From: Moniliella sp. 'wahieum'
Lineage: Eukaryota > Basidiomycota > Moniliellomycetes > Moniliellales > Moniliellaceae
Assembly (NCBI GenBank): GCA_003971905.1
Contig: RSEE01000086.1
Coordinates: 62,001-126,000 of the forward strand
Length of the DNA stretch: 64,000 nt
Direction of reading: 5' to 3'
The notes below the pieces were generated by a model. It was not told the origin of the DNA. It saw only the letters and a program-made list of their open reading frames with translations, and did no database searches. A program made the position numbers and the translations under genes. Shown piece by piece: positions 1 to 62,028 of the stretch; the first letter of the stretch is position 1, and the number at the start of each line of letters is the position of its first letter.

Positions 1-3000
1 ATCTAACCTCCGACTTGGTCCCGTTGCTCCTTTCGTTTCACCCTACTGTGTTCTCTGCCCTCCTGACCACCCTTGAGAACGTTCTCTTCACACCTCTTGA
101 GCATGCCGCCGAACAGGTTGCGCCTGCCACAAGGGTTGCCCTCGATCGCCCCCCACTGGATCCTCGATTGGAACTCCAAGCCGTATCTCGCTATGCCGTG
201 ACGTTGACTTGGCCTCCGGGCCCCGCATCCGAAACCCTGGTCCGAGTGCTGAGCTGATCGCGGCCGTAGCAACGGCGACACTGAGCTCACCTCATAGTCA
301 GGAGGACCTTCCTGCGCCCCAGGATGAGGAGGTGCGGTTGTTGCGCAAGCGCACTGTCGACGTCCTCTTGGCCTGGCACCGCGCTCAATTGGCCGCGATC
401 GACCTGCTCGCTCCCGGCTGAGGAAGCGTCGGTGGTCCGGGAGGAGGCACTTCAACTCCTCCACGCATGGAAGCGTTTGTCAATGTCGGAACCCTTGATG
501 GCCAAGGGCCAAGCGCAAGCGACCGAGGCACGCACGACGCTTGCACGCCTCCTTGTCGCCGCCCGCGACACACCCCGGCCATGCGCAAAGCCGTGCTGGC
601 GGCCCAGGTGGCCCGTGTGCGCGATGCCGCTAGTGGCCAGGAATCTGGGGCGCCACCGGATCGGTGGGCGACAGTCTCCTCAATGCTGTCTACTTCGACG
701 GCTGTGTACGCATCGATCGGTGCTCCGCCTCTGGCGCTCCCCGGCTCAGAGTTTGACACGAGCAGCAATCAAGATTTTGCTACGCCCTTGGCTCAGCCCA
801 CCACTCCTGCGGGCGTAGAGGACCCCAGCCCCTTTCGGCAGCACGTGGCATTGCCCGTAGCGGACGCATGGTCTCCAGCGCCAGCGCCATCGCCATCGCC
901 GACGCCGGCAGCGAGCCTGGCCCCTTCCAACTCCATCGGAACGGGGATGGCGCGGGGAGGACGGAAAAAGCTGGCGGCGCGCCGAATCCCAGCGCAGGCC
1001 CAGCTGGGTTCGGGCCCGTTCCCTTCGACGAGATGCGTGGGGGCTGGAAGAACCCCGCTTCCGGTCCCGGCCAAGCCTTCGTCCGTTCGCTCTTCCAGCG
1101 CCCTGTCCAGCCGCGCCCTGCCCTCGCGGCTGGGCCAAGTCCGCTCCTCCTCGGCGCGGGCGCGAGTGCAGGCGCAGGCACAGGCGCGCGCGCGCTTGGG
1201 CCCGGCCTGGGCCTCGCTGGCACCAGCTTGGGCGGCAGCATGGCCGGCAGCGTGTCGGGCAGTGTGCGGGCAGCGTTGCGGGCAGCGCGGCGGGGAGTCC
1301 CCCGTTGCGCCCGTCGCCCAGCCCGGTGCCCGTGCCCGTTCTGGGGTCCGATCTGGGCTCCAGCGCGCTGCCCTCGTCGCCGCGCCCGGTAGTGGCCAGT
1401 CCTCCTCCGTTGCCCAGCACGCTGTCTACGTTGGGGCACAGCCCTGCCTTGCCCTCGGCGCCCAGCCCGTCCTTGGCGTCCCCGCCGCTCCCCGGCCCTC
1501 TGGCGGGCTCGTCATGGGCAGGACTCGCTTCGGCCGCCACCAGCCCGCCGCAGGCACCTGCGCTCGCCCTGTCCCCGCGCCGCGCCTATTCCCCCTTTAG
1601 TCTCGCGCTGCCCCGCAAGCGCACGCGCGCATCCCCCTCCTCGGCCCCGCGGCGGCCCAGTGCGACGCTGAGCTCCCACATGTCCCTCTCCCCGCGGCCC
1701 ACCTCGAGTCTGTCGCGCACGTCGTCACAAGCGTCGGTCCGCCCGGAAGAACGTGGGTTAGGGGACGCTTGGGACTTGGCTCCAGAGTCGGTTCCCTCAG
1801 AGAGCGCGAGTGCTGCTCCCACGCGCGTCGTGTCTTTGCCCCCCATTGCTTCGCCCCCGCCTCCGCCTACCGCCCCTTCCCCGCCCCTGGGCAAGGCGAG
1901 CGAGCCGAGGAGTTGGATGCACTTGGTTTCTGCTGCATCTGCAGCGCTGGCTGATCATAGTTCGCCTGGTGAAGATGCCTGGGACTTGGGCGACGACACG
2001 TTCCGCCCGAAGGAGCCAGCGGTTTCGCGCCTGCCTGCGACTGAGAAGGCTGGCGTACCAACCTCTACGCCTCCGTCGGGGCTCTTGCGACGCGGCGGAC
2101 GAGTGGGATTTCTCAGGCGAGTCATCTGCGGCAGTGCCCGCGCCGGAGCCGGTCGAGCGTCTGCGTACGCCTCCTGTTCCTGCTGACGAAAGCTTCTCGC
2201 GTACGGCTAACGAGCTGGAGATGGTCACGCCGTCGCCATCTCAACAGGGCGGGTGGAAGCACGAGGCTCCTCCTTCGCCATCGCCGTTGCAGCACGACGC
2301 GTGGGACCTCGAGCTGCCCTCATCGTCGGCGCCTCGAGCTTCTTCGCCTCCGCCCTCCATCCCAGCTGCCCCGTCTTCCCAAACCTTGCCCGTCCTGCCG
2401 TTGTCCTCGGAAGCTGCCTTGCCTACTTCCCGCCCCGGCTCTGTTGCCAGCATGGATGCCGTGGCATCGCCTGACCACGCCGGGTCGCCCAGTCCTGCTG
2501 AGCCCGGTCTGGGTCTGGCCTCCCCCCCAGCTACAGCGGCCGACACGCTCGTTGTGAACCCGCAGCTGGCCGACCAAGCTAGCTTGGCCTCTCCCCCCTG
2601 ATCACGGACGATCAAGAGGGCGCCCGAACCCCCCGCCCGCCCGAGGGGCTAGTCCAGCCCTCTACTGCTTTCTACACCGCCACTGGCCCCGTCTGCCGCG
2701 GCGGACCAAGGAAGCGAGGCGGGCGGATGGGACCTCTCTTCCCCTACGCGCCCTGCTGCGATGGACGGTTCGGTCGCCAGCTACGCCCGTGCCGTTCTTG
2801 GAGAATGCGATGCCGGCCCCACCCCGGTCGTCTGCCGCTGCGCACAACGCGCATCTCACCCTCCCCGCTGGGCACGACGACGCTGGCACGCAGGCAGGCC
2901 CCGCGCTGGGCGGATGGGACAACGGCACGGAAGGGTGGGACTTTTCGTCGGATGACGCTCTGGATTCCTATGACGGCACGGCGGAGGACCATCCTGCCGA

Positions 3001-6000
3001 TATCGACAGTCACGCTGCTGTCCGTCGTGGCTCGGACACTGTTGCGCCCATGCCAGAGGGAAGCACCGCTGAGCGCGAAGGATGGTGAGGTGGGCTCGTT
3101 GGTTTCGGACGGAGGGGTAGTCGCCGTCGACGCCGCTGGGCCCCTGCCGTCTGCCTTGCCGCCCACCCACCTGGCCGGTCTCAACCTGGATCAAGGGGAG
3201 CCCCTTCCGCCCCCGATCGGCCGGTGCGCTTCTCCCGCCAGTGCCTGCGTCTACGCAAAACACCCTTTCTCCACCCTTGGAAGCGAGCCTGCCGGAGCAT
3301 GGGGCACCCGAACCGGTGGAACCCGCCGGCCCAACGAATGGGACTTCTCGACACACCAGACCCCTGGCGGCGATACTGTGCCAGGGCCGACTGAAGAGCC
3401 GCCGGCGCTCACTTCGCCTCTGCCTGTTGAGGACGAAGGATGGGACCTTTCGCCTGAGCTGGCGCCGGCGCCATTGCCAGATACGCTGGTGGATCCGGAC
3501 GCGGGGCAGGTGGTGGACGCGGGTGCCGAGGAACATGTCTTGCCGCCTCTGACGACCCAACCCTCGGCGGTGCACGTCCCTCCGCCCACCTCCTCCATCC
3601 GGGACGGAGGAAGGTCAGCCGCTAGACATCACCGAGGACGACGGATGGGACTTTTCACCCAAGAGGTGCCTGCGTCTTGCTCTCGCCAGAGCAGGTACAC
3701 AGGAAGGCCAACCGCTGCATGAGCATGGTCCCCATGAGGCGCATTCTTTGCCTGGCCCGACCGCATCCCCCCCGTTCTCTTCTCCGCCCGGGCGCCGGGA
3801 CCGGGGAAGGTCAACCTCTGAACGTGGATCAGCATGGTGCATGGGGGGCTTTGCCCGACCTGGTATCAGCGCCTCTTGATCTCGACACGAAAGCGGGTAC
3901 GCAGGAAGGCCAGCCACTGGATGTGAAGGATGTGGAGACTGGGAGGTAGGCCATGCCTTGGAACGGGAACCGGAGACCCTTGCCACGCAGGACGAGCGTC
4001 TGTCGTCGGCTCCACCTCACAGGGGGGATGATGCGCATATCGAACGGACGGGGAGGATGCGTGGGACTTGTCGGCCAAGGCGGCGTCTCCGCCCCTGGCT
4101 TTCCCCACTCACGCGGGTACCGAGGCGGCCCAGGTGGGCGCTCCGGCCGAACAGGAGCAGCCTCTAAACGATACGGGCGATGATGCATGGGGTTTCTCGC
4201 CCGAGCTGGAACCTGCGCCCTTCCTCTAACCTCGCAGGCAAGTACGCAGGAGAGGCAAGCACTGGACGTGAACGTGAACGTTGGTCAGGCGGACTCGACC
4301 GAGGCACCTGAGCCTGAGCTCGTGACGGCCCAGAACAAGCACATTGCCTCTTTGGCGTTGAGGTGGAGGAAGAGAAACTTCAGGACATCCCTGGCGATGC
4401 TGGATGGGACTTCTCGCCCGAGCTGGCACCTGCGCTCTTCCTCTATCCACTCAGGCAGGTACGCAAGAGGGATACCGCTGAATGTGCCGGTGTTGGTCCA
4501 TGCCGTCCTTCGCGCAGCGAGCGTGCCGTTGGTAGCTCCGACGCTGGGACGGAGCAGGCGCATGCTCTTGATACTGATATGCTGAGGACGATGGATGGGG
4601 ATTTTCGCCCGAGTGGCCCCCGCGGATCTTGCTCAGACACCCAAGCAGGTACCCAGGAAGGCCAACCGCTGGATGTGGATGTTGGCCTTGCCTTTGCCCC
4701 TGGCGCTCCGTCCGCCACGGCGCCTGATGAAGCTGTTCCCAGTGCCGATAGGGAGGATTATCGGCAAGTCAGTGCTGACGCAGAGGATGCGTGGGACTTG
4801 TCGCCGGTGCTGGCCCTGCCACGCATCTGCCCAGCCACAGCGAAGCCGGCGCGAAGAAGGAGGCGACGCTGTTGGAGCCTGCGGGATCTGCCACAGCACC
4901 GCTCTCACCCCCTGCTGCTGATGCGCCTCTGCCCGTCTCTGGTGCTGGAGCGGAGGAAAAGGCGCTCGACATTGCCAGTGATGAGGGTGGGATTGTCTCC
5001 GCCGCTGGCACCCGCGCCCCTGCTCCCCACCGAAGCGCACGCAGCAGAGGAGGATCAGCCCGGGACATGAATATGACCAAGCATTTCTGCCAACCCATTT
5101 CACGGTCGACGACAAGGCGCTGCACGCGTCTGGCGTTGCGACCGAGGAAGGGCCGTCTCCACGTGGCTGGTGATGACGGATGGGGCTTCTCGCCGGAGAT
5201 AGCACCAGTGGCCCTCCCTCCCGACACCCCTGTCGAAGCGGAGACGATCCAGCTGCAGCAAGACGTTGGCCATTCTGGCGTGTCAGAGACAAGGCCGTTT
5301 GTCGCTGGAGACGGTTGTTATTGATCTCGGCGCTGGGACGGAGGAAGGGCAGCCCCTGGATGTGGGAGGGTGATGGATGGGGCTTTTCTCAAGACGTTCC
5401 ACCTGAGGCCCTTCTGGGATGATGTCCAAGCCGGAACAGACGAGGGCCAGCCATTGGATCTGGACAATGGCCGCGTATTTGTGCCCGAGACCGAGATCCA
5501 CTCCTTCACCGCCACGGATGAGCATCTGCTGGTCCGGCTGCTGGCCCGAGGAAGGACAGCCCCTGGACACGGCAGCGAGGATGGGTGGGACTTGTCACCC
5601 AAATACTTGCGTCCATTCCCTCTCATGCTCAGGCCGACCAGGAGCCTTCTTTCGCTGGGTGACAGAGCCGCACGGACATACAGGCCATGATGGGGTGGAT
5701 CTACCTCGCTTGAGGGTGCGTTTGGACTTCCTTGGTGGCATCTTGAGACTGACTGTGGAATGCTCTCAGAAAACACGACCGACGAACATGAAGACGATTT
5801 TGCCCCCTTACCTCCACAAGGATCTGATGGCAAAACTCAGGCGGCCTTCTTCTTAACGAAGACGAGTGCCTCTACATTTGACACCAACCTACCAAGCGGT
5901 CGTTCGCAGACATGACAGCATCTACGAGGACACCCCCGCTTCACGGCGTTTCGGATACGGTCGTCAGTCAGGCGGATGCTGAGCTCGACACGGATGGTTG

Positions 6001-8482
6001 GGATCTCCCCGTTCTTGCCCTGCTCTGTCCTGCCCCTCTTCTGCTCTGCCCTGTGCTTGCTTCCCAGGCTGTGGCAAACCCGGCCCAAAGCCCCGCTATG
6101 GATGAAGGACGCACAAGCGGACGAGTGGGACTTTGAGACGGATCCGCTGGCGGGAACCCAGGAAGGGCAGCCTCTCGACTTGCGTTCGAGTCCTGACCTT
6201 CACCGTTCTCAACCGCAGGACGAATGCTGGGACTTGTCCCCCCGCTCGTTGGTGCACCCTCGCCGCCCTCGAACATGCTTCCTGAAACTGGGCCTATTCA
6301 TCTCCAGCACGCACCTCTACCCAAAAAACACGCTCACCGCCACTACAGCTGAGAGAGAGCCCAGCGTTGATGCTGCCCCGAGGGGGCAGCAGCTGACGTG
6401 GTGCCCGAGCGGTTCGAGGCAAGTCCTGGACCGACGGCGCCTACACCTGATCAAGCCGAGCAAACGTCCTTTACGTTGCACGAAGAAGAACCACATGCCG
6501 GACCTGAATCGAGTGCGATGGCAGAAGACGCCTGGGATCTGGATCTCGATGCGGATGACGATGCTTCGAGTCCTGCTGCGCCCCCAACCACAGATGCGAG
6601 GAGGAGGGGGTCCAGTCACCGGGTCGCTCAGACTCCTACGCCAACCACACGGCTGCTGCCCCCCCACCCAAGGGGAGCGAGGGCACGTCTGGCAGTTCGT
6701 GGGACGCGCTCAGTCGCAATTCCTCTCCCTTTGTGCACGCCTCGCCTCCTTCGTACGGCCGGGGTCAGGGCGGGAGGTACGCCATGCAAGCGCGTCCCCC
6801 GCTGCCAACCCGCCGCCGCCCGAGGCAGATGCCCCCTTGCTGTTGTGGAGGAGAAGGGGGCCGAGGTAGGGTCTGGGGCCGAGCCGCCGTACCCAAGCGG
6901 CGAAGGCAGTTCGGATCCGTGGGACCTTTCCTCTTCGCCCTCGCGGGCGCACAGCAACGACGAAGATGATAAGGAGGAGAGGGCGAGGTGGACACGCTCC
7001 TTGGGTCTCGCCCGCCCCGCGCAGCGGACCAACCGCATGTGGCGCCTCCCGCCCACCCTTCCTCAGACTTGCGCATGCGGCCCTGAGTCGAACGGCGGGT
7101 GCCGAGGCGGAAGCACATACCCCTTCTGCGGCTGCCACTGAGGCACGTGAAAGAGGGGTGCCGTTGTTGACTGTCGCACCTGCCGCCGCCGCCGCGGAAG
7201 AGGAGGGTATGTGGGGGTGGGGCGAAGAGGGTGACGGGTCGATGGCCGTGGCGGGTATGCCATCGTCGCAGGTGCGCTCTGCGCCCACCCCACCCCCGCT
7301 CGCACCCGCGCTGCCGACGGAAGAGGCGTATCAGATCTCGGTCCGTACCGAGTCGGTGCGGGCGCAGCTGGAGGAGCTGGTTGCGCTGTACGAACGTGCT
7401 ACCGCGGCGGATGGTAGTGGTGCGGGAGGGTTGACCTTGCCGAGCTCGCCGAGCTGGCGGGAGTGGAAGAAGTGAAGGAGGTTATGGAGCTGGCTGGTGC
7501 GCACGAATCCGTGCCGTCTGGCAGCACGCTTCCCGCCCTGTGCAAGCCAGCGTGGTGGACGCGGTGGACGTGTACATTGCCACGCTGCCCGCCACGTATG
7601 GGGCCGAGGCGAGCAGTGTGCCTGCGCTGGCCGGGCAGTACGCCAACGACTGTGCGACGATGGCCGCGTGGGTGCAAGCGGCTGCGATGCGCATGGGCGA
7701 GGCGGTGCAGGAGCGCTGCACGAGCGAGCCGAGCGTCTGGGCATGATGGGTCACGAATGCTTTGAGCATCAATTGGTACGTTGCGATCGCCGCCTCATCG
7801 ATTCATCGATTCATCCTGTCCTTCTTGTTGCGACTGAGCGGACTGACTAACCACCTCCCCTCTGTGCGAATGGAATGACAGCGTGTGCAAGAAGGCCTCG
7901 TGTCCCGCAGCTTGCTCTCGGCCGGGGGCTTTGGGGCTGGCGAATGTACATCGGTTCGGAGCGGCAGAGAAGGCGGTGGCGCAGGTGGTGGGCACGCTGG
8001 CGTCGCTGGCACGTGCATGGCAAGGCGTTGTGCCGGCGAGCGCGACGGCGCGTGCGCTGGGCCGCCTGGCCAACCTGGCGCTGGCCAGCGTTGTGGGCCA
8101 GATCGAAGCGCTGGAGGACATCTCGGACAACGAGAGCCGGCGCTTGGAGCAGCTGTGTTCGCAGCTGCGTCGCCCGCTGGGGCGCATGGTGGCCGCGGCG
8201 GCGCTGGGCCTGGACGCGGGCGCGGCCGCCGACGCGGCCCAAGCCGAGGCGGCCGGGTGACGGACGAACGGGCGTCGGCGGTGGCCGCGCCGTTTGTGCC
8301 ACCTGGTTCAAGGCGACTACTTGGCCGATGTGCTGACCGGCTCGTTGGCCGACATTGCCTTTCTCTGGGGCGAAGCAGGCGCGTTGCGCGACTTTGCCCC
8401 GCCGAGCTCACCCAGCTCCTCCGCCCTCTTTTCCGATTCGGCCAAGCGGGCCGAACTGATTGCGCGCATCGAGCGCAGCTAA
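1..8482 (+). CDS. DSL1: Dsl1/ZW10-family vesicle-tethering protein, giant, 5'-partial, frameshifted
   Basis: Subunit of the ER-membrane tether (Dsl1/NRZ complex) that captures COPI vesicles for Golgi-to-ER fusion; ZW10 relatives also serve at kinetochores. The C-terminal part (about 7320-8482) carries the family signature: a helix YQISVRTESVRAQLEELV, then YGAEASSVPALAGQYANDC, then SVVGQIEALEDISDNES, a VP..LVQGDYLADVL..SL..I segment and the final ALFSDSAKRAELIARIERS. These line up with the human ZW10 end as I know it. An intron sits at 7776-7881. The first ~450 bp (HPTVFSALLTTLENVLFTPL and following helices) fits the family's middle region; the N-terminus lies outside the window. Between them lie ~1.3 kb of Ser/Pro-rich sequence and ~5.5 kb holding about 25 tryptophan-acidic motifs of the form DxWDLS/EGWDFS. 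Family members are usually 700-900 residues; this span has about 2,800 codons. The frame changes many times, which I attribute to sequence error. Stop at 8480-8482. Family confident; one continuous gene likely. Confidence 0.75.
1740..7230 (+). repeat. Array of ~25 tryptophan-acidic (W-D/G-L/F-S) motifs
   Basis: Coding repeats inside the Dsl1/ZW10 gene. Motifs start near 1765, 1974, 2098, 2299, 2722, 2911, 2930, 3336, 3436, 3640, 3836, 4051, 4180, 4396, 4586, 4783, 4980 (frame-broken), 5170, 5368, 5578, 5690 (degenerate), 5993, 6118, 6222, 6528, 6693, 6910 and 7208. Typical forms are EDAWDLSPVL, DDAWGFSPELEP, EGWDLSPELAP, DEWDFSGE and, last, GMWGWGEEGD. In yeast Dsl1 a disordered acidic loop (the lasso) uses tryptophans to bind the delta- and alpha-COP subunits of COPI. 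I infer these motifs are an amplified version of it. Confidence 0.8.
3430..5610 (+). repeat. ~195-215 bp tandem coding repeat (65-70 residue unit)
   Basis: Between 3436 and 5578 the tryptophan motifs recur at 3436, 3640, 3836, 4051, 4180, 4396, 4586, 4783, 4980, 5170, 5368 and 5578, so most steps are 190-215 bp. Each unit also holds a second box, roughly GTQEGQPLDV, read at about 3608, 3690, 3798, 3894, 4238, 4456, 4648, 5338, 5431 and 5547, with a weaker copy near 6151. The unit is therefore W-box, LAPAP-type spacer, then TQEGQPLDV box. This is a true duplicated unit rather than scattered short motifs. Confidence 0.7.
7776..7881 (+). other. Intron in the Dsl1/ZW10 gene
   Basis: Donor GTACGT at 7776 follows the exon end CFEHQL; a CTGACTAAC branch-like site lies near 7843-7851 and the acceptor ACAG ends at 7881, after which the protein resumes as VQEGLVSRSLL. 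The 106 bp length is typical for this window. Confidence 0.75.
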
Positions 8483-8823
8483 CATGCAACACAACGTCGA
8501 AACCCACGCGCCGCTGCCGGCTGTCGGGGCGCGGGGTCTGGCATCTATCAAGGTGTACCTACCACCACCACCATCGTTCTCACATTCTCACCTTGACACA
8601 GTCATAGTATGCATAGCAACGACAATCGACGGATGGTAAAAGGCGGAAGCAGAGGGCGCTCGTGAAGGAAAAATGAAAAAAGGGTAGGTAACCACGACAG
8701 AAAAGAAAGACAGCGAAGCGAGGGACAAAACGTACGCGTAACGGCACAAGTCGACGGCAATGGGGGCTGCCGAGCTGGCGGGTGAGAGCGGGGTAGGCCG
8801 GAGGGCGAGGGGCGAGAGGGCGC
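8483..8823. other. Convergent intergenic region
   Basis: Space between the 3' ends of the Dsl1/ZW10 gene (+) and the RhoGAP gene (-). It is less GC-rich than its flanks and presumably holds both 3' UTRs. No gene or structured element recognised. Confidence 0.5.
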
Positions 8824-11800
8824 CTACTGGTTCGCCGCCCAATTGCCTGCCTCGCCCAATGTGAGCGGGGTGGTGGATCGGGAAGTGGGCTCAGCTGTGT
8901 GCCGCGGACGGGCGGGGGCGCCCGCATAGGCCGAGGAAGGCAGCGAGGGTAAGCTGCTCCGGCACTCGAGATCGAGGTCGAGGTCGAGGTTGAGGCCGTG
9001 TGGGAGCTTGCGTGCGGAGGAGGAGCGGGAGCGGGAGCGGGAGAGAAGCGGTGGGTGGGAGACAAGGCCGCCTCCACCCCGGAATCGGGCAGGCCAGGGT
9101 ACATTTGACCGGCGCTGGCTCCGGTGCTGGTCCCGGCCAGACCGAGCCAGGTGGGTGGGGGCGAGGAAGGCGCGTGGGACGTCAGCGACGGCGCGGCGGA
9201 GGACAGGTGGGAGAGGGAGGAATGGGAGGCGGACGAGGAGGAAGGTAGCGGCGACCCAACCGGGCTCCACGATTGGCCCAATCCAGTCCGCCACGGCTCG
9301 GCTAGGGTGTTGCTCAGCGGGGCAGGGTTGCGGGAGGCAGAGGCCCAGGCCGATCCCAAGGCGGATGCCGACGCGGAGGTATAGGAGGAATACGCGTAGG
9401 AGCCTGAAGCCGAAGCGAAGCCAGGGCCGAAGTAGGCGTCGCAAAGCCAGACGAAGAAGAGCCGAGCCCAGGCGTGAGCCCCGGGACGCCCGCGACAGAT
9501 CCAGTCCCGGACGAGGGCAAGCTAGGTGGGAGATGCACATGTCGGTGCTCGGTTGGGGCGAGGTGGTGAGGCCAGGAGCAGCCGAGGCAAGCGCGGGAGC
9601 AAACGCATGTCCATCCCGCGGTGAAGAGGCAGTCGCGGAGTGGGTCGGCGTGTCCCGAAGGGAGGCAGAAGCGAGGGCGGACGTGAGGGCGGCGGGCGGG
9701 CCCCTCTTGCGGCCGAGCGCGTGGGGGGCAAAGCCCGACGGCACGGCCGAGGCATACGCGGACGGAGGCGAGTGGAGCGAGAGGGGCAGTGGGCGTGGGC
9801 GGGCGGAAGGCTGGGTTGCGACACGCGTGATGGCCGCACCCGTCCCCGAGGCAACAGGGGGATGGGTGGGCGCGTGGGCACGGGTCGGGCTCGGGCGGAG
9901 GCCCTAATCCGAGCCCCGAGAAGGGCTGCGTAGAGGGAGGGGGTCGGGGAGGGGCGGGGAACTGAGGCTGCCATCGAGCGACGGGACGCCCGTCCACGGC
10001 GACGCCAATGGCGCGCCCAACGTCGGCACCGGGAAGACCAGGGCGGTGTGGGTCAGCAGCAGAGGAAACACATCCCGCACGGGCAGCCCGACCGACCACA
10101 CAATCATCAAGTTCTGCATCGTCATCCGGTTCACCCTGCTTGCCGCCAGCACACGGGCGAGGTGCGCGGCCAGCGTGCGGAGCAGCGCGTAGTTCGCCGG
10201 CGGGAGGTTGGCACGGAGGATCTCGCCCACCAGACGGGCGCGGGCCATGGTGCCGCGCACACGAGGACGCACCGCCGAGTGGCGCAAAGCAGAGGAGCCG
10301 CCCATGGCCAACCCCAGGGCAGGGTGAACAGCCGGGCTTGATCTTCGTCTTGCCTCATGGTGGTGTCCTCGTCTTCTTCCTCCTCTCCTTCTCTCTCGTC
10401 CCCTTCGTCCTCCTCGTCCTCGTCTCTTCGGGCGGTAAGGCGGCCAAGGCTGACGAGGCAGATGGCGTTAACACGCCCTGTCCTTCAGGAAGGAAGCGCA
10501 GAAACGCCTTCAAAAGTCCCGCAATAGCATGTACGTCCCAATAGAACCCCAGTCCCGCCGAGGTATCCAGTCGCTCGTCCGTCTCCTCCACCGCGGGCGG
10601 GGAAAAGTGTGAGGAGGACCCTGTCCATGGTGTGGTGGGGGAAGAAGGCAACGACGGCAAAGAGCGTTCATCTTTCGCGGTCGAGCCAAGGCGGGTGGAA
10701 GCGGCAGCCCAGGCGGCGCCGAGAGCGGTAGGGCGACGGCGGGGGACACGTTGCGCAAACGAGGCGACTGGTGTCGCAACTTGGCAGGACGAAGGAAAAC
10801 TCTTTCCTTGGCGTCGCCGCATCATCTTCTTCGGCCGGCGGCACAGTGACCCCGCCGGGGCGTGCGACCGTTCCCTAATCCAAGCTTGGACCACATGCGA
10901 AGAGGGCCGAGCAGGGACGCGTCGCCAAACGTATCGAAATACGCTTGCAACGATTTGATCAGTTCGGCCGAGCCGGATTGACGATAGATACCTTCCTCGT
11001 ACTGAGCCTTGCGGCGCTCCAAGTATTCTATGCATCGGAACACCAACGCCGGCACAGCGTACTCGTCCGGGCTGGCGCCGTGCCCTTGTGTCACGTAGGG
11101 CAGCGCCGTCGCCCCCCCCTGGCACAAAGGAGCACGCAAGTCGATCAGCACAGCGGATCGTGCGACAGAGGTCGACAGAGGGACGCCCATCACCGCATGC
11201 GCTCGGGTATCGTTCCACCATGAGACAGCGAACGGAAATGCGAAGCGCGCGAGTGGGAGCGTTGGCGTGCATGCGAAAAGGAAGGTGAGAGAGGAAGATG
11301 ATGCGCAGGGGGATCAGCGGGACGCGGGTCCCTATCCTTATCCTTGTCTTTGTCTTTGTCCCTGTCTTTGTCTTTGTCGGCACGATTGCGGTGCCAGAAC
11401 CTCCGACGAGTCGGCCCTTCTTCCTGCGGCGGAGGGACAAGTGGCATGCTCGGGTGCGAAGGCAGGCCCTCATGGGTAGCAGCCATACCCGTTGCTCCAT
11501 GCAACGTCAAGGCCGTTGACAAGCTGGCCGAGTGGCTGAGAAGCGAGGCGATCGCCCCGCCGGCGCTTGTCGCAGCAGCCGAAACGATAGCGGACCAAAC
11601 GCAGTGGGGGCAGAGGAGGATAAGACACTTGACGAACTGGTGCGGCCAAGGAAGGACTTGATTCTCCATCCATCATCCAGCCAGCAGGATCACCGCGCAC
11701 CGGAAGGGGTGGGACGGATGTGGCGGCGGTGGGGGTACGGTGTTGACAGCGGTGGCGGCGTTAGCTCCGCCCGTTCCGAGGGAGTGTCGATACTCCCACC

Positions 11801-13551
11801 CCGTACAACCGGTCCCGCAACCGGCTGCCACTGATCGTACGTGGACTAGAGAGCAATCGCGGAGACAGAGGGGCCGTGGGCGCTGTCCCAGGGGCGGGGC
11901 CACTGGCGCCCGCGGGCGCAACCGGGACATCACGCAGACGAGGTGGTGGAGAGGCGACCCCCCACCGCAAAGAGGAAGTGGAAGAGTAGGAGGAAGGCTG
12001 GAACTCTTTATTGACATCCCGACTCAAAATCTCATCCTGCCGCCGGGAAGGGTAGGGAGCCTGTTCCCGTTCCCGACCCAGCACCTCGTCCTGTCGCCTG
12101 GTCGGGATCGCCCATGGATCTGCACCGACAGAAGGGGGTGACATGGACACAACGCCCTCGCTTTGCGCCAGCGGGGAATGTGCCGAGATGGGGGGCAGTG
12201 CAGAGACGCCGGGAGGGGCGGTGCCGGGGCGGCGGGTAAGGCAGGGGCAGGAGAAGGCTCACCAAGCGCCAGGGCCCGTACCCGACGGCTGAAGCTGGTG
12301 GAGTGTTTGACGCGTCCAGGGGACTGCGGCGGCGTGGAGGCGGTAGAGGTGCGAGAGTAAGAACGGGAGCGCGTGCGGGAACGCTGGGTGGTGGCGTTAG
12401 GGTGGTGCGCGGGGAGGAAGAGGGGGAGGGGGAGGGGAGGAAGGGTGTGGGAGTGAGGGGGTGGCGGCAGGTGCAGGGGACCGATGCGAGAGCAATGCAG
12501 CCAGTGCGCTTGTACTGGCACTGGTGGACATGGCCTGGAGGCGCGGCGAAGGATGCGGGACGGGTGCAGACGCGGGATCGGGATGGGGATGGGCGAGAGC
12601 AAGACGGGACCCCGTCTCGGTCAAGGCGGTGATCCAAGCGTCGCGCTCAGCCCCATTGTCGGCGCTGAACAGATGAGGGCCGCCGGGTATGGTAGGCACG
12701 GTGAGGCGGATGCAAAAGGGAGGGACAAAGCCATGGACGTCCGGTTTGGGATGCTCCTCGCTCGTGGCCGCCGCACCTACCAGAGAGATGGAGTCGAGGA
12801 AGCGGCAATCGGGGCCATAGCGGTCCAGACGGTCGGTACGCAAGACAAACAGCTCGGGGAAAAAAGTGGAGCGCGGCCCAGGAAGCTTCGCACAGTCGGG
12901 GTGCCGGTCGCGTCGCGGGCAATCCAGGCGGGTGGTTGGTCGGGAGACACCAAGTTGGCGGTGAGGAAGGCATGCATGATGTTCTCAGGCGCAACGCGCT
13001 GCAGCGCATCTAGGAAGCCTGGACGGCGTGCTGGGGCAGAGGATGGTCAATGGAGGGCCGAGGGGAGCGAGGGGGAGCGTACCTTGCGTGCCGCGATACG
13101 GGCAGGACTGTGGTCGATGAAGAGGGCGGAGGAGGGGAGGGAAGGAAGCGAGGGCGGAGGGGCGTGGAGGTGGCGGCGGTGGCTTGGGCATGGAGGCGGA
13201 CCAGGTCGGACCAGGTTTTGCGGATGAGCCACGAGTGGGAGGGGACGGCGACGCGGACATGGTAGACGTAGGTGTGGGGGCCGGGCGAGGTGGTGAGCAA
13301 GACGCCGGAGGGCACCGCGATGGACCAGGGGGAGGGCAGACGCGGATGCGGATGCGGGGGCGGGCGAGTGGCGGCCGGTGGGGGCGGCGAGGGCGGGAGG
13401 ATGGTGGTGGCGGCGGGGGCGGCATGGGTGGGGCGAGGGCGGCGAGGCGGGCGCGGAGGGTGGCATTGTCGGCGGCCAGCGCATCCCGCTCGGCGCGCAC
13501 CGCCGCCAGCCCGTCGGCCGCGACGTCGGCGTCGGGGTCGCCGTCGGGCAT
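8824..13551 (-). CDS. Bem3-type PX-PH-RhoGAP, GTPase-activating protein for Cdc42/Rho, frameshifted
   Basis: Turns off Rho/Cdc42 GTPases at polarity sites; the PX and PH domains bind phosphoinositides. Order from the N-terminus: a short coiled coil (RAERDALAADNATLRARLAA) right after the chosen ATG at 13551; a PX domain (13.3-12.9 kb) with YHVRVAVPSHSWLIRKTWSD and its end RVAPENIMHAFLTANLV; a PH domain end with HLFSADNGAERDAWITAL (about 12.65 kb); a basic/Ser-rich linker with a KDKDRDKDKD run near 11.35 kb; a RhoGAP domain (11.2-9.95 kb) with the arginine finger in EEGIYRQSGSAELI, the DVHAIAGLLKAFLRFLPE helix and NRMTMQNLMIVWS. This domain order is that of yeast Bem3. The GAP domain looks interrupted by ~110 extra residues. 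A Ser/Pro-rich tail follows; the stop at 8824 is the least certain part, and 9904 is the alternative end. Confidence 0.8.
13019..13082 (-). other. Intron within the PX domain
   Basis: On the minus strand the exon ARIAARK is followed by GTACGC, and the CCAG acceptor precedes the exon encoding FLDALQRVAPEN. Length 64 bp. The frames on the two sides do not join cleanly, so an indel nearby is likely. Confidence 0.55.
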
Positions 13552-17899: not shown

Positions 17900-20800
17900 T
17901 TAGTCCGACTTGTGCTTGTTAGCGTCGAGAAAGAGGGTGAAGCGACGCATCTTGTTGCCGCGTTTGGGCGTATCTTTCTTATCTGTGTCCGAGGCAAGTG
18001 GGCTGGACGGGCCCGGGGGTTGCGGCGACGAAGGAGGCCCAGACGCAACTGCGGCTGCCTTTCCCTCGCCTTCGTCCACCTCCAAGACCGAAGGCACACT
18101 TGGTCCGGCCGCGCGGTCCGTCGCGTCTCCGACCCAATCCGGCGGCTCAGACGGTACAGTCCGCGTTTCCGGCCCGACGGCGGCGGAGACCGCGCCGGGG
18201 ACCGCGCCGGGGGCACGACTACCGCCACCTCGGGCACTGCGTTCCATCTTCGTTTTTTCGACTCGTCCGTGCTAGCCTCTTTGCCACTAGGTTCGGACCC
18301 CGTGTCTTCCTCCTGAATGGCGGGAACATCCGACTTGCGCGTGAGCAGACGATACTTGTCGTCCATGTGGGGCACAAAGGTGCGGCGGCGATGGGCGGCG
18401 GCGGTGAGTGCACGACGGGATTTGCGCAGCGTCCGGGCCGTGGAGGAGTACACGCGGGGCGGGAGAGCGGCCAAGCCTGAACCTCCATTCCGTTCCGAGT
18501 CGGCCGCGACAAGCAGATCGGTATTGAGGTCGTCAATCATGTCCCAGTCCTCTTCTTCGCTTTGCTCACCCTCCTGCTTGAGCGCCATCGAGGCACGGCG
18601 CGCGGGGGGGGCAATGGACGCGCTGGGGACCACGTTGGGGTTGGCAATCGTCGCTTGGGCTGCTGCCGCAGCAATCGAAACGATATCCGTGGGACGACGT
18701 TGGCTCGAAGAGGAGTGTTGGGCCTTGTGTGCACTTGGTTTGACCAGCCCCTCGGGCTCGGCGGCTGGATTGGTACCACGGGCACGAGCTAAAGAGCCAA
18801 TGCCGCGTTGAGCGATGCCGTCTTGGACAACGTGGGTGCAGGGGTGGTTTGCGCAGTGATGCTCCCTGCAGTATTGGCAGTGGTGGCGGTGGTGGTGGTG
18901 GTCGTGTTGCACATCGACTGATCCGGAGCATCGAGACTAGCAATGGAGCCCGAGGTGGCCATAGCTTCGGGTACGCTAGTCGGGATGGAAGAGGCCTGGC
19001 GCTCATTGAATCCTGGTGATTCCAGGGTGAGCCCGGCCACGTCCTTCTCCGTTTCCGTTTCCGTCTCTGTCTCGGGCGGCTCCGTGGCAGAAGAGCCAAC
19101 GTCAGGCAAGCTGACCACTTCGGGGTTAGAGAAGCTTGACTCATTCGCCTCTCGCTCCAGTTCTTCCAACGTCGCATTCGCCAAGAAAGCAGCTGCTTCG
19201 TACTCTTCAAACTCGGCTGCCTGAGCGCTGGAAAACTGGACAGACAAAGGACGGGAGGTGGGGCGTGCCCTCGGAACCGAGTGAAGAAGTTGGTGGGACG
19301 GTACCGAGGCGTGGAAGGGGATGACAACGACTGTTCCATCGTCCGGTCCGCCCGTGAAGAAGAGATGATCCGTACCGTTGTGCCAGGGGGCGCAGGAGCC
19401 CACGCAGGTTGAACGGGCGAGGGCAGCGGTTGCTCCACCACGGGTGGACTAGGCTGAGGCTCGGGAACCACATCCATAGGCGTCAATTCCGGTTCGGCGG
19501 CCGGGGCGGGGGCAGAAATGGCCAGTTCTGGCCCAGCGGGCGTTGAACTGTTCTCCTCTGCGACATGAGATGGGCTGGGAGTGACTTCCATCGCTTCGGC
19601 GTCCACGGGCGCCTCCCGTACTGGCATCGCCTCCACCACGGGGGAAGATTCGACCGGTTGGTCCGAAACAACGGTTGTGTCGACTTTCGGGCTCGAGGGT
19701 GCTGCTGGTGAAAGAGAAGGAAGAGCAGATACATCAGCGGTAGATGAGCTGGATGAACGCGCCGCTGGGGACCGGGAAGTAAGGGGAGTGTGCTGGAGCC
19801 GCTGAGGCTCTTGTTTAGCCGCAATGGCCGCACCGTAGGTGTGAGCAATCTTGCGTGTCGGCTTGTTGGGCAACAAGGGCGCAGCCCCGATTTTTTCTGC
19901 GCTGCCTCCAACGCAGCCAAACGTGCCTTAACGCTCCCTGGTGGATAGCGTTGTGCGGGGGCGGGCTTGGGTGGAGGGGGTTGTGGCTCTACCGGAGCAG
20001 CAACAGAGGCAGCAGCAGTGGGAGTGGCAGTCGGAGCGGCAGTGGGAGTGGCAGCGGCAGCGGCAGGAAGACCGGAAGGAACACTGGTAGGGACGGCGGG
20101 GATGGCGGGGACGGCGGGGATGGCGGGGACGGCGGGGACAGTGGGGGGAAGCTCCTGAACAGGGCTCGGGGGAGCCGGAGGCGCTGACGCCACCGGCTCG
20201 TCCGGAAGCTCGGAGGAGGAGGGTGGGACCAAGGCCGGCTCGAGGGGAGCGTTCACAGGAGAAAGTTGGGGGGCATTCCTGCTCTCTTGTGGGACTGGTC
20301 CCGACGAGCTAGAAGGCAGCCCATCGGCACTACCAGACGTCGTGTCCCATGCACTCGTCGTATCCGGTAGACCCGCCGCCGGGCCTGGTGCAGGAGAGGG
20401 CGTACGTTCCCGCATCGCAGTGTCTTCATCATGTGTGTCGTGCTCCTCGGGCGAGGGTGCGTCAACGTCCATCCCATGACCATCTTCTTCCTCCCCCTCG
20501 GCAGGAACAAAAGAGAAGGTGGAAAAGTCGTAGCCTTCAAACAGGCTTTGCACGTCATCCTGGCCCTGGGCCTTGGCCACACTCCGGACCTTGGCCAAGA
20601 GACGGGTGCGTTCGGCCTCAGCCGCAAGTTCGTCCTTTTCCCTGCGGCGGCGTGCACGGTCCTTGGACGACTCATGCGCATGCTGTGGATCGTCTTCGTC
20701 CGAGCCCTCGGGTTCGTCTGATTCGTCATCGTCAAACTCCAAATTGGGCCGCAAGCCGAGGAAGGTTTCATCAAAGTTGCGCGTGTCCTCTTGGTTGTGG

Positions 20801-21916
20801 GGATCAGTGTGGGGGACATAGGGGGGGATGTAACGGCGGAAGTGGATGTGGTCCCACTCAATCATGCCAAAATAAGGATGCTTCTTTAACCGGGGCTCCT
20901 GCAACCGCAAGCCTGGGTCCTTCTGCAACAAGCCACGGAGAAAGCCGCGCGTGTCCTGGTCCCAGGCTGTTGCATCGTAGCCGCGCGACAAGGGATCAGG
21001 GAAAGACAACGGCTCCCGCAACACCCGCACGTACATCTCCGTGTGACTCTCACCGGCAAAGGGCGTGTAGCCTGCCAGCATCTCGTACAACATGGTACCA
21101 AAGCTCCACCAGTCCACCTCGTAACTGTAACGCCTGGCCCGAGATGACCTCGGCGAGAGGTATTCGGCTGTTCCGCAAAAGGTGGTGGTGGCATCCTGGC
21201 CAGCGAGTTTGGCTAGCTTCTCAGCCTCGGCCAGGCTCTTGCTGCTCGAGGCGGAGGGGAGCAGCCAATGGGGGAGCGCGCCTCGATCCCGGGCGCGGGA
21301 ACTCTTTGAGAGGCCAAAGTCAGAGAGGACAATGTGTCCATCCTGTCCGATCAGTACGTTCTCTGGCTTCAGGTCGCGGTAAATGATGCCGGCCGCATGG
21401 AGCGCCTCGACACCCTCGGCGATCTCGGCAGCATAGAAACGGGCACGGTCGGTGCCCAGGCGGCCCCAGCGGGCGAGCTGGGTGGCGAGGTCGCCGCCAG
21501 GATGGAAGTCCATGACGAGGTACAGGTTGGTGGCATCGTGGAAGCTGTACCAGAGCTTGACGATGAAGGGAAGTCCGGTCTCGCCGGGGGCGGCGTGGGC
21601 GGCGGAGGTGCGGGCAAGCACGGCCTGCTCGGTGAGGGTGTGCTGGAGCTCCTGGTGGGCGAGCACGTGGCGCTTCTGGATGGTCTTGAGGGCAAAGATG
21701 GACTTGGTGGCGCGCTGGCGCACGAGGAGGACCTGGGGAGGGAGGGGTTAGAGGAGGGAGGAGGAGGAGGAGGAGGAGGAGGAGGAGGAGGAGGATGGAG
21801 ACCTCGCACCTTGCCAGCGCAGCCCTTGCCGAGACACGCAGCAGGTCAAAGTCGGCGATGGTGGGCGCGCGGCCGGGGCGCGGGGGCCAGCCAGTGGCCG
21901 GCGGGGCGCTGGGCAT
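17900..21916 (-). CDS. AGC-family serine/threonine protein kinase with very long C-terminal tail
   Basis: ATG at 21916 gives a short N-terminus, then the glycine loop (DLLRV.GKGCAGKV), split by an intron at 21733-21809. Kinase features: lysine in IFALKTIQKRHVLA, LVMDFHPGGDLATQL hinge, HRD variant IIYRDLKPENVLIG, DFG in LSDFGLSKSS, activation segment TTFCGTAEYLSP and SYEVDWWSFGTMLYEMLAGY. About 35 extra residues lie between DFGLSK and TFCGT. The APE region is garbled by one lost and one gained base near 21130-21150. A hydrophobic-motif-like FEGYDFSTFSF lies near 20.5 kb. Beyond it run ~850 residues of Pro/Ala/Ser-rich and acidic tail (a VPAIPAVPA repeat at 20095-20150, SEEEDWDMIDD near 18.5 kb), ending in the basic KRGNKMRRFTLFLDANKHK. 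AGC membership is firm; I cannot assign it to Ypk, Sch9 or another named member. Confidence 0.8.
21733..21809 (-). other. Intron in the glycine-rich loop of the AGC kinase
   Basis: Donor GTGCGAG follows GKGCAGK; the acceptor CCCCAG precedes VLLVRQRATK. The 77 bp intron contains a (GGA/GAG)n tract at about 21748-21795 on the plus strand (a pyrimidine tract in the transcript). Confidence 0.75.
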
Positions 21917-27714: not shown

Positions 27715-30700
27715 ATGAGCCACCGTGTGCCCGCCGACGAGGGCGCTACGCCTCGCCTTTGTCGGCCGCCGTCGCCACCACCGCCACCACCACCACCAAA
27801 GACGACGCCGCGCGCATCGCCCACACCCACCACATCGCGCCACCGCACCCCCACACCCGCACCCACGCCCCCGCCCCCCGCCGCCCCCTCCACCGCCCGC
27901 CGCCGACCCCTCGCCCCCGCCGCCGCCCTCGCGTCCCCTCGTGCCCTTCCCCTCCGCCCTCCCCCGCCCGCCGCCGCACGCCCCCCCCAGCACGCCCCCC
28001 CACCCCGCCCAGCCCGACGCAGCGCCCACGCCCCACACCGTCTGGCAGCTCGCCGGCGCTCCTGCCTCTGTTGAGGCAGCCCACACCAGCATCCTCCGTG
28101 ACGCCGCCCAGCACGCCTCGGCCGTCGTGCGCGTCCCCACGTCTATCCTCCTCCCATGCCGACTCGCCGCGCGTCCGCCCCACCGTCCAGCACCGCATCG
28201 ACGCCATTGCCCACGCGACCGCGCCAGTTCCAGGTCGTCCACCGTGTCCCCCGCGCGCTGCCTCGGCCGCCGTGGCCGAGGTCGAGACAGAGTTCGAATC
28301 CGAGGTGCGCCTCAGCGGCCACACGGGACATGGTGGACCTGGCGCGCATCCGCGTGCTTGCGCTGATTGACGAGCTGGTACGTACCCCCCCCCCCCCCCC
28401 GTGACAAGCTCGTGCCTTGATCTGCTCTCCCCCCTGCTTACCACCCTCCTTTTTCTTCAGAACGGGCTCGATTCAGACACGTGCGAGCTGGAGAGCATCT
28501 GCACCATTGTCGGGGCCGCACAAGCGGTGTGTGATCCAAACCATCCAGACTGAAACTGCCACATCCATTTACCTTTGCCCCGGAACCTTTGGCTGGTTGC
28601 GCGCCGAGCCCGAAGCGCCCCTCGCCTCCCTGGCCAACACCATCCTTATCACCGGCCCCCGCCCGGGCGTGCAGCGCGCCAAGGAAATGCTGCTGCAGAT
28701 CGCAAACCCACAAGACCAGCGTGCTCCTCCACAAGCCTGCCGATCTCCCGCCTGGCAAGCGCGACTGGCTGTGCTCCACCACTCACTCAAGCTCGCCGAA
28801 ATCGCACGGGACAATGCCACTCTTTCTCTCCCCCCGTTGGGAAGTGACTCGCCTCGTCTTCTCGTCTGGGGCGACAACCGCGCTTCGATCGAACGCACAC
28901 TCCGTGCCGTTATGGCCTTGGCCACCGAACTCTACCTCGCCTCGATCCAACTTGCCCCGCCGCTGCCTCGCGTGATCAACCCGGGCTTTGAGGCGTTTTC
29001 TACCCCGGCACGGCCCGTGGAAGCCTTCCCTTCCATGGCGCGCCAAGTGACGGTAGGGGATGTGATCCAGGCCACGGCAGCCGCCTCTGGGGCCGAGGTA
29101 GGCGCCCAGCAGCTTGCGTCGGGCGTGTGGGGAATGGAGCTTTCGGGCACCGCGACCGAGGTCAAAGCGGGACTGGCGACGGTGCTGAGCACCCGTGGAC
29201 CCAGTCGTTCGAGTGCCATGTATCGGTCTGTCTTGAGCTTGCCGCGGAACATCGTGACTTTTTGTCGGGAAAAAAGAACGGCAAGGTGAACAAAATTATG
29301 CGCTTGTCCAACGTCCAGATCGTCTTTGAGGAGGGGAACGAGTACAACTTTATTATTCGCCTCTCTGCTAGCGGCCGCGGGTGGGACTTGGCCGACCCCA
29401 ACCCGGGCCCTCTGGAGGGAATGGACCGGAGCAACGTCCTGCTTGGCCTCACCTACCTCCAAGAGGAGCTGCCGGCCGAAATTGCGTTCTATGTGCCCGA
29501 GGCGTACCACAAACGCATCATCGGCGTCGGGGGCAAGAACATTCAGCGTATCATGAAGCGGTACGGAGTGTACGTCAAGTTTCTTCGGCTGAAGAGGCTG
29601 CCTGGGGAGGCTGTCTGCCCACCGAGGACAACGTCGTGGCCCGTACGCCTGCCAAAAATGCCAGTGCGTCTCTTTGCCGCTAAGGCGACCGTGCTGGAGA
29701 TGGTGGCGCCAAAGACCGGGACTTCACGACGCTTCAAGTGCCCTTGGCTCGGGGGCAGCACCGCATCTTGGCCTCGGAACGTGCTTTGGTCCTGCACGAC
29801 GTTGAAGCACGCACATCCTGCAGCATCACCTTCCCTCCGCGCGAGAGTGGGGACGAGACGATTACGCTGTATGGTCCGAGCATGTCGCTGCGCTTGTTGC
29901 GCATGTGGTTTGGACCAAGTGCCTTACCGTGCCAGCTTGCAAATCCGTCCGCCCAACCGATGCTGCTGCAAGACCGGCTGGCCAGTGCCGAGTTTGGTGT
30001 GCTGCTGGAAGTGCTGCGGCGCGAGTACAGTATCCGCACCACGGTGTGGCAAGCGCCGTCGGATGCTCCTCCCTCGCCTCCTTCGGACAAGACCGAAGCA
30101 GGGGTACACTTTCAACTGCTCACCACGCGTGCCCACTCAGATTGGGTACCGATTGCCAAAAAATGCTTACTACGTTTTTTCTCTTCGGGCTCGCACCCGC
30201 CCACGCAGCCTCGGTTTCCACCCCGCTCGTCTCGCCCTCGGTGCGCACGATGGGCCTCCTTCGCGCTTCAGCACGCCGGCCTCCCTCCCCGATTCGCCCA
30301 TCTACCGCTCCAACCCGCACGTGGCCGTGGGCGCCGGCGCGGGCGTGGGCGTGGGCGTGGGCCCGGCGCACCACTGCCCCCGCACCCGGCACGGTACGTG
30401 CACGGTTCCTTGCCCGACGGGGACCGGCACGCGCGCTGCCCCCCTAGCCCATGCACGCCACGGCTCCCACGCCTCGCACCGGTCCTTTGGCTCAGCGGGA
30501 TCGAACGTGTCGGGGGAGGTCCGTTGGCGCCGGTGCAGGGCAAACGCTACCCGACCCACACCCACACCCTCTCGGGCAACCTCTTGTGGGGCAAGCCCGG
30601 GGAACGGGAATGGTCGTCGGGGTGCGTCCGCGCGGCGCAATGGAACGCTGGGACGGACCGGGCGCGATCGCGAGCGCTAGCTGGGTGCCGACGATGGAAC

Positions 30701-45244: not shown

Positions 45245-47079
45245 ATGCTCGACTTCTTCGGCGCCCCCAGCGGCAGCAAGGAGCCGCGCAAGCCCCACCC
45301 CCGCGTGCCAGTCGTCAAGACCACCACCGTCAAGCGCCGTGCTGCTCCGGCGCCTGCCGCGCGTGCCCCCGCCCCCTCCGCCCCGCCACCACCAACGCGC
45401 TCTCTGCCGACGTGCGCGCGCGCCTGGCACGGGAGCGCGCCGCCCGCACCCCGACCCCCGCTACGGATACCAGTTCTGACCGCCCGCGCAAGCGCCCCGT
45501 CCTTCCCAGCGCAGCAAGCAGCCTTCGCCCACCCCGCCTTCCACCCCCTCCCAGTCGAGCGAGAGCGAGCAAGAAACCGACACGGGAAACGAACACAGCA
45601 GCCACCATGATCACGAGAGTAGGAGCGGGAGCCAACGTTCGCGCCGTCGAACGTCGAGTCCGCGCCGGCGCAGGGACACAGCCTCGGTCTCGAGTCCTGT
45701 GCCGAGCGGGATGGCGCGTCTGGGCCGGAGCGGGGTTGCGTCCGAGTACAATGTGCCGCGTAAGTGTGGTGGAGGCGGCGTATGAGCGTAGCAAGTACCC
45801 TGTGCTGAGTTCGCGCCAGCTGGTGCGGCAGACGGGGTCGCAGGCGTTCCAGCCGTTTTTTAAGGACTTGGCGCCGGACACGGTGGCCACGCTCGAGTAC
45901 CCGGCTATGGATGCGCAGGAAACTTTCTGCTCGTCTCGCCGCGTTCGGAGGAAGAGTACGACCCGATTGCTGAGCTGCTGCGAGCAGTGTATGCGATGGT
46001 GGCAGCCTACGTTGATCCGGCTGTGGCGAGCGAGAGGTTTGGGTCGCTGGACGATCTCGAGACGGGACCTACGTCGCTGGCGCCTCGGTTGCGGATTCAC
46101 ACGCCCTCGGCACCCGCTACGCCCAACCACGTCCCGCCTTCCTCCTCCTCTTCCCGCCGCAGGAGGAGCCGATCCTGCGCTCATTCACCAAGGCGCGCAA
46201 CCGGCGCGACGGCACCCTCTTCCTCCACACTCTCGACCGGTTCAACCACACCTTGCGCGCACTCAAGGCGTCCGGCTCGGTGCTGGAGGTGATGCGGCGG
46301 CAGACCGAGACCGAAGGTGTGCCTGAGGTGGTGTGGTCGGTGATCCAGGCACAGTGCTACGCGCGCGCGGTCGGACCGCACGTAGAGGGCTTGGCGGAGT
46401 ACCAAGCGTTTAGCGATAACGTCTATGGCGAGCTCTTGCCCGTGTTTATGAGTGAGATTGCGCAGCTGACCCAGCTCGGTCCGGGCAAACACTTTCTCGA
46501 TCTCGGCAGCGGCGTGGGCAACCTGCTCGTCCAAACTGCCATCCAAACGGGCGCGCGGGCCGACGGGGTAGAAATCATGAAGAATCCCGCGGCGTGCGCC
46601 GAGGCGCAGTTGGCCGAGGCGCGATCCCGGTTCCGCATGTGGGCACTCGAGGCCGGACCAATGCAAGCGTGGCGCGCAGACTTTTGCGACGACAGCCGCG
46701 TGCGGCGCGCATTGGCGTTGGCAGACGTGGTGTTGGTCAACAACTATGCGTTTACGCCAGCCACCAACGAGACCTTGTCGCTACAGTTTCTCGATTTAAA
46801 AGACGGGGCGCAAATTGTCTCGTTGCGCCGTTTGTGCCGCACGACTTTAAACTGTGCGAGCGCACCTTGTCCTCCCCGCTGGCCATCTTGCGCGTCGAGG
46901 AACGCGAACACGCACGTGGCGCCGTCTCCTGGGCCGAACGGTCGGGCAAGTACTACATTCATACCGTCGACCGCTCCTTGGTACGCACCGTCGCCTCGGC
47001 CCTGGCCAGCTCGCCGCAGCGCAAGCATCGGCCCAAGTACCGCCGTCAGCCCGACGAGTCGGACGACGAAGACAGTTGA
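45245..47079 (+). CDS. DOT1: Dot1-type histone H3-K79 methyltransferase
   Basis: SAM-dependent, non-SET methyltransferase acting on H3K79 in nucleosomes; role in silencing and the DNA damage response. Start MLDFFGAPSGSKEPRKPHPR, a basic/Ser-Pro-rich N-terminus, then KYPVLSSRQLVRQTGSQAFQ and YDPIAELLRAVYAMVAAYVD. The catalytic fold is clear: AFSDNVYGELLPVFMSEIA, the SAM loop HFLDLGSGVGNLLVQTAIQT, ADGVEIMKNPAACAEAQLAE, ADVVLVNNYAFTPATNETLS and LQFLDLKDGAQIVSL. After one lost C near 46826 the frame resumes as PFVPHDFKLCERTLSSPLAI and ends YRRQPDESDDEDS. Other frame changes lie near 45920 and 46130. The C-terminal acidic end is short. ATG 45245 is the first in frame. Confidence 0.92.
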
Positions 47080-61414: not shown

Positions 61415-62028
61415 TCGGACACGTGACATCTGATATGAGTGTGGAGTGGCTGAGGCGCGTGCGATGGGTGCGGGCGGTGATAAAGGGGGGGGGCGGCTGT
61501 AGCGGAGAGAGAGCGGGGCTAGCGGGGCGCAGACAAGGCGCAGGGGAGGCTGTGGGGATGGGGGGGGGCGTGTACGTAGGGGGGCGAGGGCGGAGGATGG
61601 GCTCGGGACGCAACGGGCCGGAGCCGACCAGGGTTTGTTTTCCAGAGAAGTTGACCCCTGGGAAGGACGGGCGTGGCCGGGTGGCGCTAATCATGGGCGA
61701 CAAGCGTGGCCCCTGGCATGGGCCGCACGTGACGGGCGCCTGCTGGCAGCTGGGCAGCGGCGCGCACAGACCGCCGGCGCTCTCCTGCTCCTCCTCGTGC
61801 CGCCCGATCTGCTCCGACGGGGCGCCAGGAGCATCGGCTGGCGCGTCGGCCTCAGCCAGCCGCACCCAACACCCACCGCAAGCTTCGCCTCTTCCACGCG
61901 GGGCGGCCCGCAGCCACCCCACCCTCAGCCGGCGATCCCACACCCGCGGGGTATATAGCTTCGTATATAGCACCCACCCCCGTCCCCCCCAGGCGCGCTG
62001 CTGCCCCCCCCCCCCCACCCACCCCGCC
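61415..62028 (+). promoter_or_regulatory. PEPCK promoter with twin TATA boxes
   Basis: Two GTATATAG boxes lie at 61951-61958 and 61963-61970, about 60-80 bp before the PCK1 ATG at 62029. A C homopolymer of about 13 is at 62004-62016. The region between SDE2 and the TATA boxes has no recognised gene. Strong, probably regulated promoter (inference from the TATA boxes and the gene's role). Confidence 0.65.

Follow-up and report, generated by a model that had tools for sequence, protein, structure and literature searches.

A Dsl1/ZW10-type gene of Moniliella carries a long array of tryptophan motifs that may be an expanded COPI-binding lasso

The lasso of yeast Dsl1 is short and carries a few tryptophans. 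Positioned some 20 nm above the membrane, it binds alpha- and delta-COP through tryptophan motifs (PMC4868844), a mode of COPI binding also described in PMC4206994. The locus described here, from the fungus Moniliella sp. 'wahieum', raises the question of whether an acidic stretch with about two dozen tryptophan motifs, lying ahead of a ZW10-type domain, is a lasso of this kind, and what it would bind. The locus lies in a 64,000-nucleotide stretch of DNA (the window, C86:62001-126000, with a G+C content of about 64%) taken from an assembly of 69.5 Mb in 223 contigs; positions are those of the window, with negative numbers for bases upstream of it. We consider it reasonably probable that the gene is this fungus's Dsl1/ZW10, present in two allelic or homeologous copies, and that a COPI-binding lasso has grown in it to about 1,880 residues, which would make the array a multivalent COPI ligand of the tether.

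The whole locus occurs twice in the assembly. The second copy, on another contig (C87:237501-251500, reverse strand), covers window positions 1-9000, and the parts of the locus follow in the same order on both contigs. Over 13.8 kb, the alignment of the two copies contains 13,186 matches, 508 mismatches and 163 gaps. With the entire locus thus present on two contigs, at an identity of about 96% in the aligned bases, two haplotypes or homeologs of the Dsl1/ZW10 region seem to be represented in the assembly.

The identity of the gene is judged by its C-terminal domain. For a query of 352 C-terminal residues, read from the second copy with the letters of the window copy at two breaks, Pfam returned ZW10_C2 at 2.3e-21 (77 bits against a cut-off of 27), and the raw window frame gave the same family at 5.1e-10 (40.1 bits). 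In a search of PDB sequences, these residues aligned to positions 481-778 of the 779 residues of human ZW10 (7qpg_W, 5.7e-22), and hence the C-terminal region resembles that of metazoan ZW10, a member of the NRZ and RZZ complexes. The preceding part of the joined reading matched ZW10_C at 4.9e-5, with 23.8 bits and thus below the curated cut-off of 25.8, and is covered by the human ZW10 alignment. We assign the first exon part of this region to 7330..7775 on the + strand and the helical ZW10_C2 domain with the stop codon to 7882..8482; a probable intron between them (GTACGT...TGACAG, 7776..7881) is suggested by splice-like ends and by the frames on both sides. When the genome was searched with the ZW10_C2 profile and the best candidates only were scored, three matches were obtained, all of them at this locus and its second copy. 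The initial annotation had placed a motif array upstream of a ZW10/Dsl1 C-terminal domain on the same strand, with a profile search of the last part against these families as its check, and the matches to ZW10_C2 and human ZW10 bear this out.

The gene spans the + strand from an ATG at -889, that is 889 bases before the window, to a stop at 8480-8482. The feature had been placed at 1740..7230; the motif array does lie there, but the gene extends beyond it. The N-terminal region, of which 1..927 falls in the window, can be read in both copies when frame switches are allowed, and splice-like ends and frames point to an intron at about -552 to -444. Its 465 residues have no Pfam match over the cut-off (the best being FerA, 0.037, and COG5_N, 0.044) and no match among PDB sequences; from their position, they probably represent the helical N-terminal part of the family. 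In PMC2241642, the N-terminus of Yarrowia Dsl1 is also said not to align with that of yeast. A low-complexity linker at 928..1763 (+), rich in Ser, Ala, Pro and Gly in some frames, separates the N-terminal region from the array. It contains an outlying W-G-L motif at 1038, seen as SDEDAWGLEEP in a three-frame reading of the second copy, and its frame is uncertain, as are the exact length of the gene and the 835 bases of low-complexity sequence (929-1763).

The motif is present in clear excess over chance. Between 1740 and 7230, the strict form W[DG][LF]S occurs 16 times on the + strand, against a mean of 0.13 and a maximum of 1 in 200 dinucleotide shuffles, and is absent from the minus strand; elsewhere in the 64 kb, there is one more on the + strand (58273) and none on the minus strand. 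The relaxed form W[DG][LFV] occurs 22 times in the same interval and strand (shuffle mean 2.49, maximum 7, 200 dinucleotide shuffles). In the second copy we count 24 relaxed motifs, of which one lies in the linker preceding the array and another at a frame junction; a WDN and a WDA occur in addition. Of the 24 relaxed motifs, 23 (counting W1038) are retained in the window copy, where they are intact locally and spread over all three forward frames. A count of about 25 W-[DG]-[LF]-S motifs, as first proposed, is thus close to the truth for the relaxed form and too high for the strict one. In the 24-motif consensus, D stands at -2 in 16 cases and A (10) or G (9) at -1, while the tryptophan is followed by D (19) or G (5) at +1, by L (14), F (9) or V (1) at +2, by S at +3 (17) and by P at +4 (13).

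The array is not uniform along its length. An upstream dispersed part (1764..3431, +) has W-D-[LF] motifs at 1770, 1980, 2104, 2302, 2728, 2936 and 3339, and a downstream dispersed part (5990..6950, +) has motifs at 5999, 6126, 6228, 6533 and 6920. Between them lies a central tandem array (3432..5620, +) of about a dozen units, evident from DNA repeat families D1-D7, spacings and unit scores. Here the joined reading has 11 W-[DG] sites spaced 65-74 residues apart, with one spacing of 42, and a twelfth site at the frame junction. The consensus of the central unit is D-D-[GA]-W-[DG]-[FL]-S-P-E-L-A-P-A-P-L-P, followed in many units by A-G-T-x-E-G-Q-P-L-D. For this second segment, over window positions 3600-6180, the second copy has 11 matches to a loose pattern, six of them with an exact EGQPLD. 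Beside the ZW10 domain, at 7212..7220 (+), stands a W-G-W in acidic context, a lasso motif of the WxW type (EEEGMWGWGEEGDG in the window copy and EEEDMWGWGEEGDG in the second copy).

In all, the array measures about 1,880 residues (1888 in the second-copy reading) and carries a net charge of -239. Its composition in the second copy, in percent, is Pro 14.9, Ala 14.8, Ser 8.9, Leu 8.5, Asp 8.4, Glu 8.2 and Lys 0.8, from which we would predict that it is disordered. Neither the six raw array frames nor one joined array reading gave any Pfam match at E up to 0.1, and a search of PDB sequences with an idealised array sequence gave one match only, to Sec7 at chance level (E 2.3). The proposal of a lasso of over 1,500 residues agrees with this length, with the lasso-like position and with the acidic WGW beside the ZW10 domain.

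The closest known counterpart is Dsl1p of S. cerevisiae, which shares with the Moniliella gene a C-terminal domain of the ZW10 superfamily, an acidic tryptophan-bearing insert between the N- and C-terminal parts, and a WxW in acidic context. The two differ in that the Moniliella insert measures about 1,880 residues and carries some two dozen W-[DG]-[LFV] motifs, partly in tandem units, instead of a short lasso with few tryptophans, and in that it often has Leu where a second aromatic residue is expected. Metazoan ZW10 differs in another way: the Moniliella gene has a lasso-type array, whereas homologs from metazoans, and likewise from plants and aquatic fungi, are stated to be without a lasso in PMC4868844. 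The C-terminal tryptophan motifs of Gcs1/ArfGAP1 are similar in being short and set in acidic surroundings, and those of this type are described as binding the mu-homology domain of delta-COP (PMC7145657, PMC6737914); these proteins, however, carry single or few motifs, and are ArfGAPs rather than tethers. The ligand class LIG_deltaCOP1_diTrp_1 is described in PMC7145657, and the affinity of the delta-COP domain for such tryptophan peptides is given as low micromolar in PMC6737914. In the open literature we found no description of an array such as this one, the 2010 Dsl1/Zw10 review comparing fungi being outside that scope.

To assess the fit to COPI ligands, we compared the 30 array tryptophans of the second copy with 2000 shuffles. 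The strict ELM pattern for LIG_deltaCOP1_diTrp_1, [DE]{1,3}.{0,2}W.{1,6}[WF] (PMC7598153), is matched by only nine of the 30 (shuffle mean 2.1, maximum 8 of 2000), and Wx(1-6)[WF] by 13, a level reached in 1 of 2000 shuffles. If Leu is also allowed within these positions, 27 of the 30 match (mean 15.6, maximum 24), and 24 are followed by a hydrophobic residue at +2 (mean 5.7, maximum 15 of 2000), this last pattern having been chosen post hoc. An acidic residue within the three positions before the tryptophan is found in 19 of the 30 (mean 12.5, maximum 23), which is no strong enrichment given the acidic composition. Because the tryptophans fit these patterns to this degree, we infer that the array is an expanded and partly drifted delta-COP ligand, with many weak sites that would serve avidity and reach.

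The array would hang from the tip of a tether at the ER, where its many weak and interchangeable sites could engage delta-COP, through its mu-homology domain, and perhaps alpha-COP. Avidity and reach together would allow one tether to grip a COPI vesicle at several coat subunits; alternatively, the array might compete for coat contacts and so help uncoating, and the Dsl1 complex is indeed described as possibly assisting uncoating by blocking COPI domains (PMC4206994). Since Ser-Pro directly follows 12 of the motifs, proline-directed phosphorylation could tune the binding. More tentatively, and as something we would regard as possible rather than probable, a short lasso may have been tandemly amplified into a brush of about two dozen weak sites on a chain that reaches around the vesicle, with the motif shifting from WxW/WxxF to W-[DG]-[LF]-S-P together with the pocket of delta-COP, phosphorylation at the Ser-Pro sites acting as a switch, and avidity capture, or stripping or holding of coatomer, taking the place of one-to-one docking. 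Open questions about tethers include the number of contacts with the coat that they require, and whether they dock coated vesicles or pull the coat off. A natural tether with more than 20 lasso motifs offers a test case in which valency, affinity and uncoating can be compared with the yeast lasso, and it would show a short linear motif multiplied at one defined site of machinery that is otherwise conserved.

The alternative that survives best, although we still consider it unlikely, accepts a real array on a real Dsl1/ZW10 protein and has W-[DG]-[LF]-S-P bind a partner other than COPI (another coat, an adaptor ear, a SNARE-associated or a cytoskeletal protein), leaving the WGW and a few WxF to serve COPI. 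What gives this alternative its weight is the residue at +2: the commonest is Leu, in 14 of 24 motifs, which the ELM pattern does not accept as a second anchor, the published patterns calling for Trp or Phe among the residues that follow. The ELM pattern likewise has no place for the S-P that commonly comes after the motif, or for the AGTxEGQPLD-like second segment. Against it, the array belongs to a tether, and the yeast relative of this tether contacts COPI through acidic tryptophan motifs; moreover, nine W-x-F and one WGW fit the COPI-type motif in kind; nor do two other tryptophan-reading systems offer a better match. The core of the kinesin light chain W-acidic ligands is [LM][DE]W[DE]. 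These ligands also have tryptophan in an acidic context, and binding to kinesin light chain TPRs had been suggested for the array, but this core has no match anywhere in it and we drop the suggestion. The Atg8/LC3-interacting region reads [WFY]xx[ILV] with a preceding acidic residue, Ser or Thr; only two regular-expression matches occur in the array, TGAFDFL and SSWDAL, and neither is a WD[LF]S motif.

Selection on the motif was assessed by comparing units with one another, and the comparison speaks to a second alternative, in which a disordered insert has grown in a neutral or near-neutral, minisatellite-like manner and the copies of the motif come from DNA duplication and not from use. We based this comparison on the codons at -2, -1, +3 and +4, which had not been used for choosing the units. 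Between the 11 central units, pN/pS at these unconditioned codons is 0.21, against 0.64 at +5 to +13 and 0.82 at -14 to -5. The core units differ at about 0.6 of their synonymous sites, yet these motif codons are little changed at the protein level; the low ratio, set against the higher flanks, indicates that in the core the motif has been held while the DNA and the linkers drifted. Across all 24 units the contrast is weaker than in the core (0.57, against 0.86 and 0.93 in the flanks). The motif also persists outside the tandem core, mostly without similarity between the linkers of the dispersed units; the linkers were compared in 68-residue windows, and neighbours less than 68 residues apart score high because their windows overlap. 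Furthermore, neither copy has gained or lost a whole unit relative to the other, the largest gap in the array being 14 bases. Neutral growth draws its support from two adjacent central units whose DNA shows 74% identity over 116 nt, and from the fast change of the array between the copies. Mismatches reach 49.7 per kb in the array, compared with 19.8-23.1 in the N-terminal part, linker and C-terminal region and 33.1 in the upstream stretch, and dN/dS between the copies, to which assembly errors add noise, is 0.58 in the array, 0.30 in the N-terminal part and 0.38 in the C-terminal part. Between the copies, and subject to the same noise, motif and linker codons show no detectable difference in change (14 of 417 and 147 of 3,399 nonsynonymous sites, p = 0.44), which likewise speaks for neutral growth. 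We regard neutral growth as quite improbable.

Whether the array and the ZW10 domain are read as one protein has to be judged across frame breaks, which both copies carry. The gaps between them are mostly not multiples of three (146 of 163) and mostly one or two bases long (131 of 163), and point to small indels. The gaps are sparsest in the N-terminal part, at 6.6 per kb, compared with 11.7 upstream, 13.2 in the linker, 13.0 in the array and 10.3 in the C-terminal region. A codon-usage model that allows frame switches and forbids stops reads 2,554 residues from the window copy with 28 switches and 2,756 residues from the second copy with 14, of which 11 lie in the array; since the model forbids stops, a stop-free reading does not by itself count as evidence. 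Both copies can be read from the N-terminal part through the array, and the linker is called non-coding in both. The model omits 7564-8600 in the window copy and 12542-12876 in the second, although the raw frame of the former contains ZW10_C2. In the second copy, the reading continues unbroken from the array across the border into the ZW10 region (12159-12541). When the two copies are compared in the chosen frames, pN/pS is 0.54 (124 synonymous and 187 nonsynonymous changes, 2,544 codons); the two shifted frames give 0.85 and 1.40, and this difference supports the coding reading. Most likely the breaks arose as errors in the assembly, and the N-terminal part, the array and the ZW10 domain are likely to form one continuous gene across them.

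Assembly errors are not the only way to account for the breaks in the window copy. This copy could instead be a decaying allele, in which most single-base gaps of the array are genuine and the other copy alone is in use. Such an allele would account for an imbalance in missing bases: bases are missing from the window copy at 61 places in the array (window 1764-7320) and at 10 in the C-terminal region, against 11 and 2 for the second copy, while the N-terminal part is balanced at 5 and 7. The deficit in the array reflects either uneven polishing or decay. Uneven polishing of a repetitive stretch would give the same picture, the other copy itself needs 11 switches in its array, and the motifs of the window copy are, with one exception, intact locally; we therefore give decay a low probability. 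That the array and the ZW10 domain belong to separate genes, or that the locus is misassembled, can be set aside as very improbable despite the number of switches required under a model that forbids stops and leaves out part of the ZW10 region, because the two contigs agree in order and the better copy reads from the array into the ZW10 region, and the gap density in the array is similar to that upstream and made up mostly of gaps of 1-2 bases.

An Rfam search of the window gave no match. By Pfam, it contains genes for a protein kinase (19483-21747, -), a KH-domain protein (28992-30680, +) and a DOT1 histone methyltransferase (46016-47107, +), and the start of a gene for an ATP-type PEP carboxykinase (61294-62703, +). 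Upstream, in C86:56001-62100, the neighbours, read by eye only, appear to be a Zn2Cys6-type transcription factor and a DPM3-like subunit of dolichol-phosphate mannosyltransferase.
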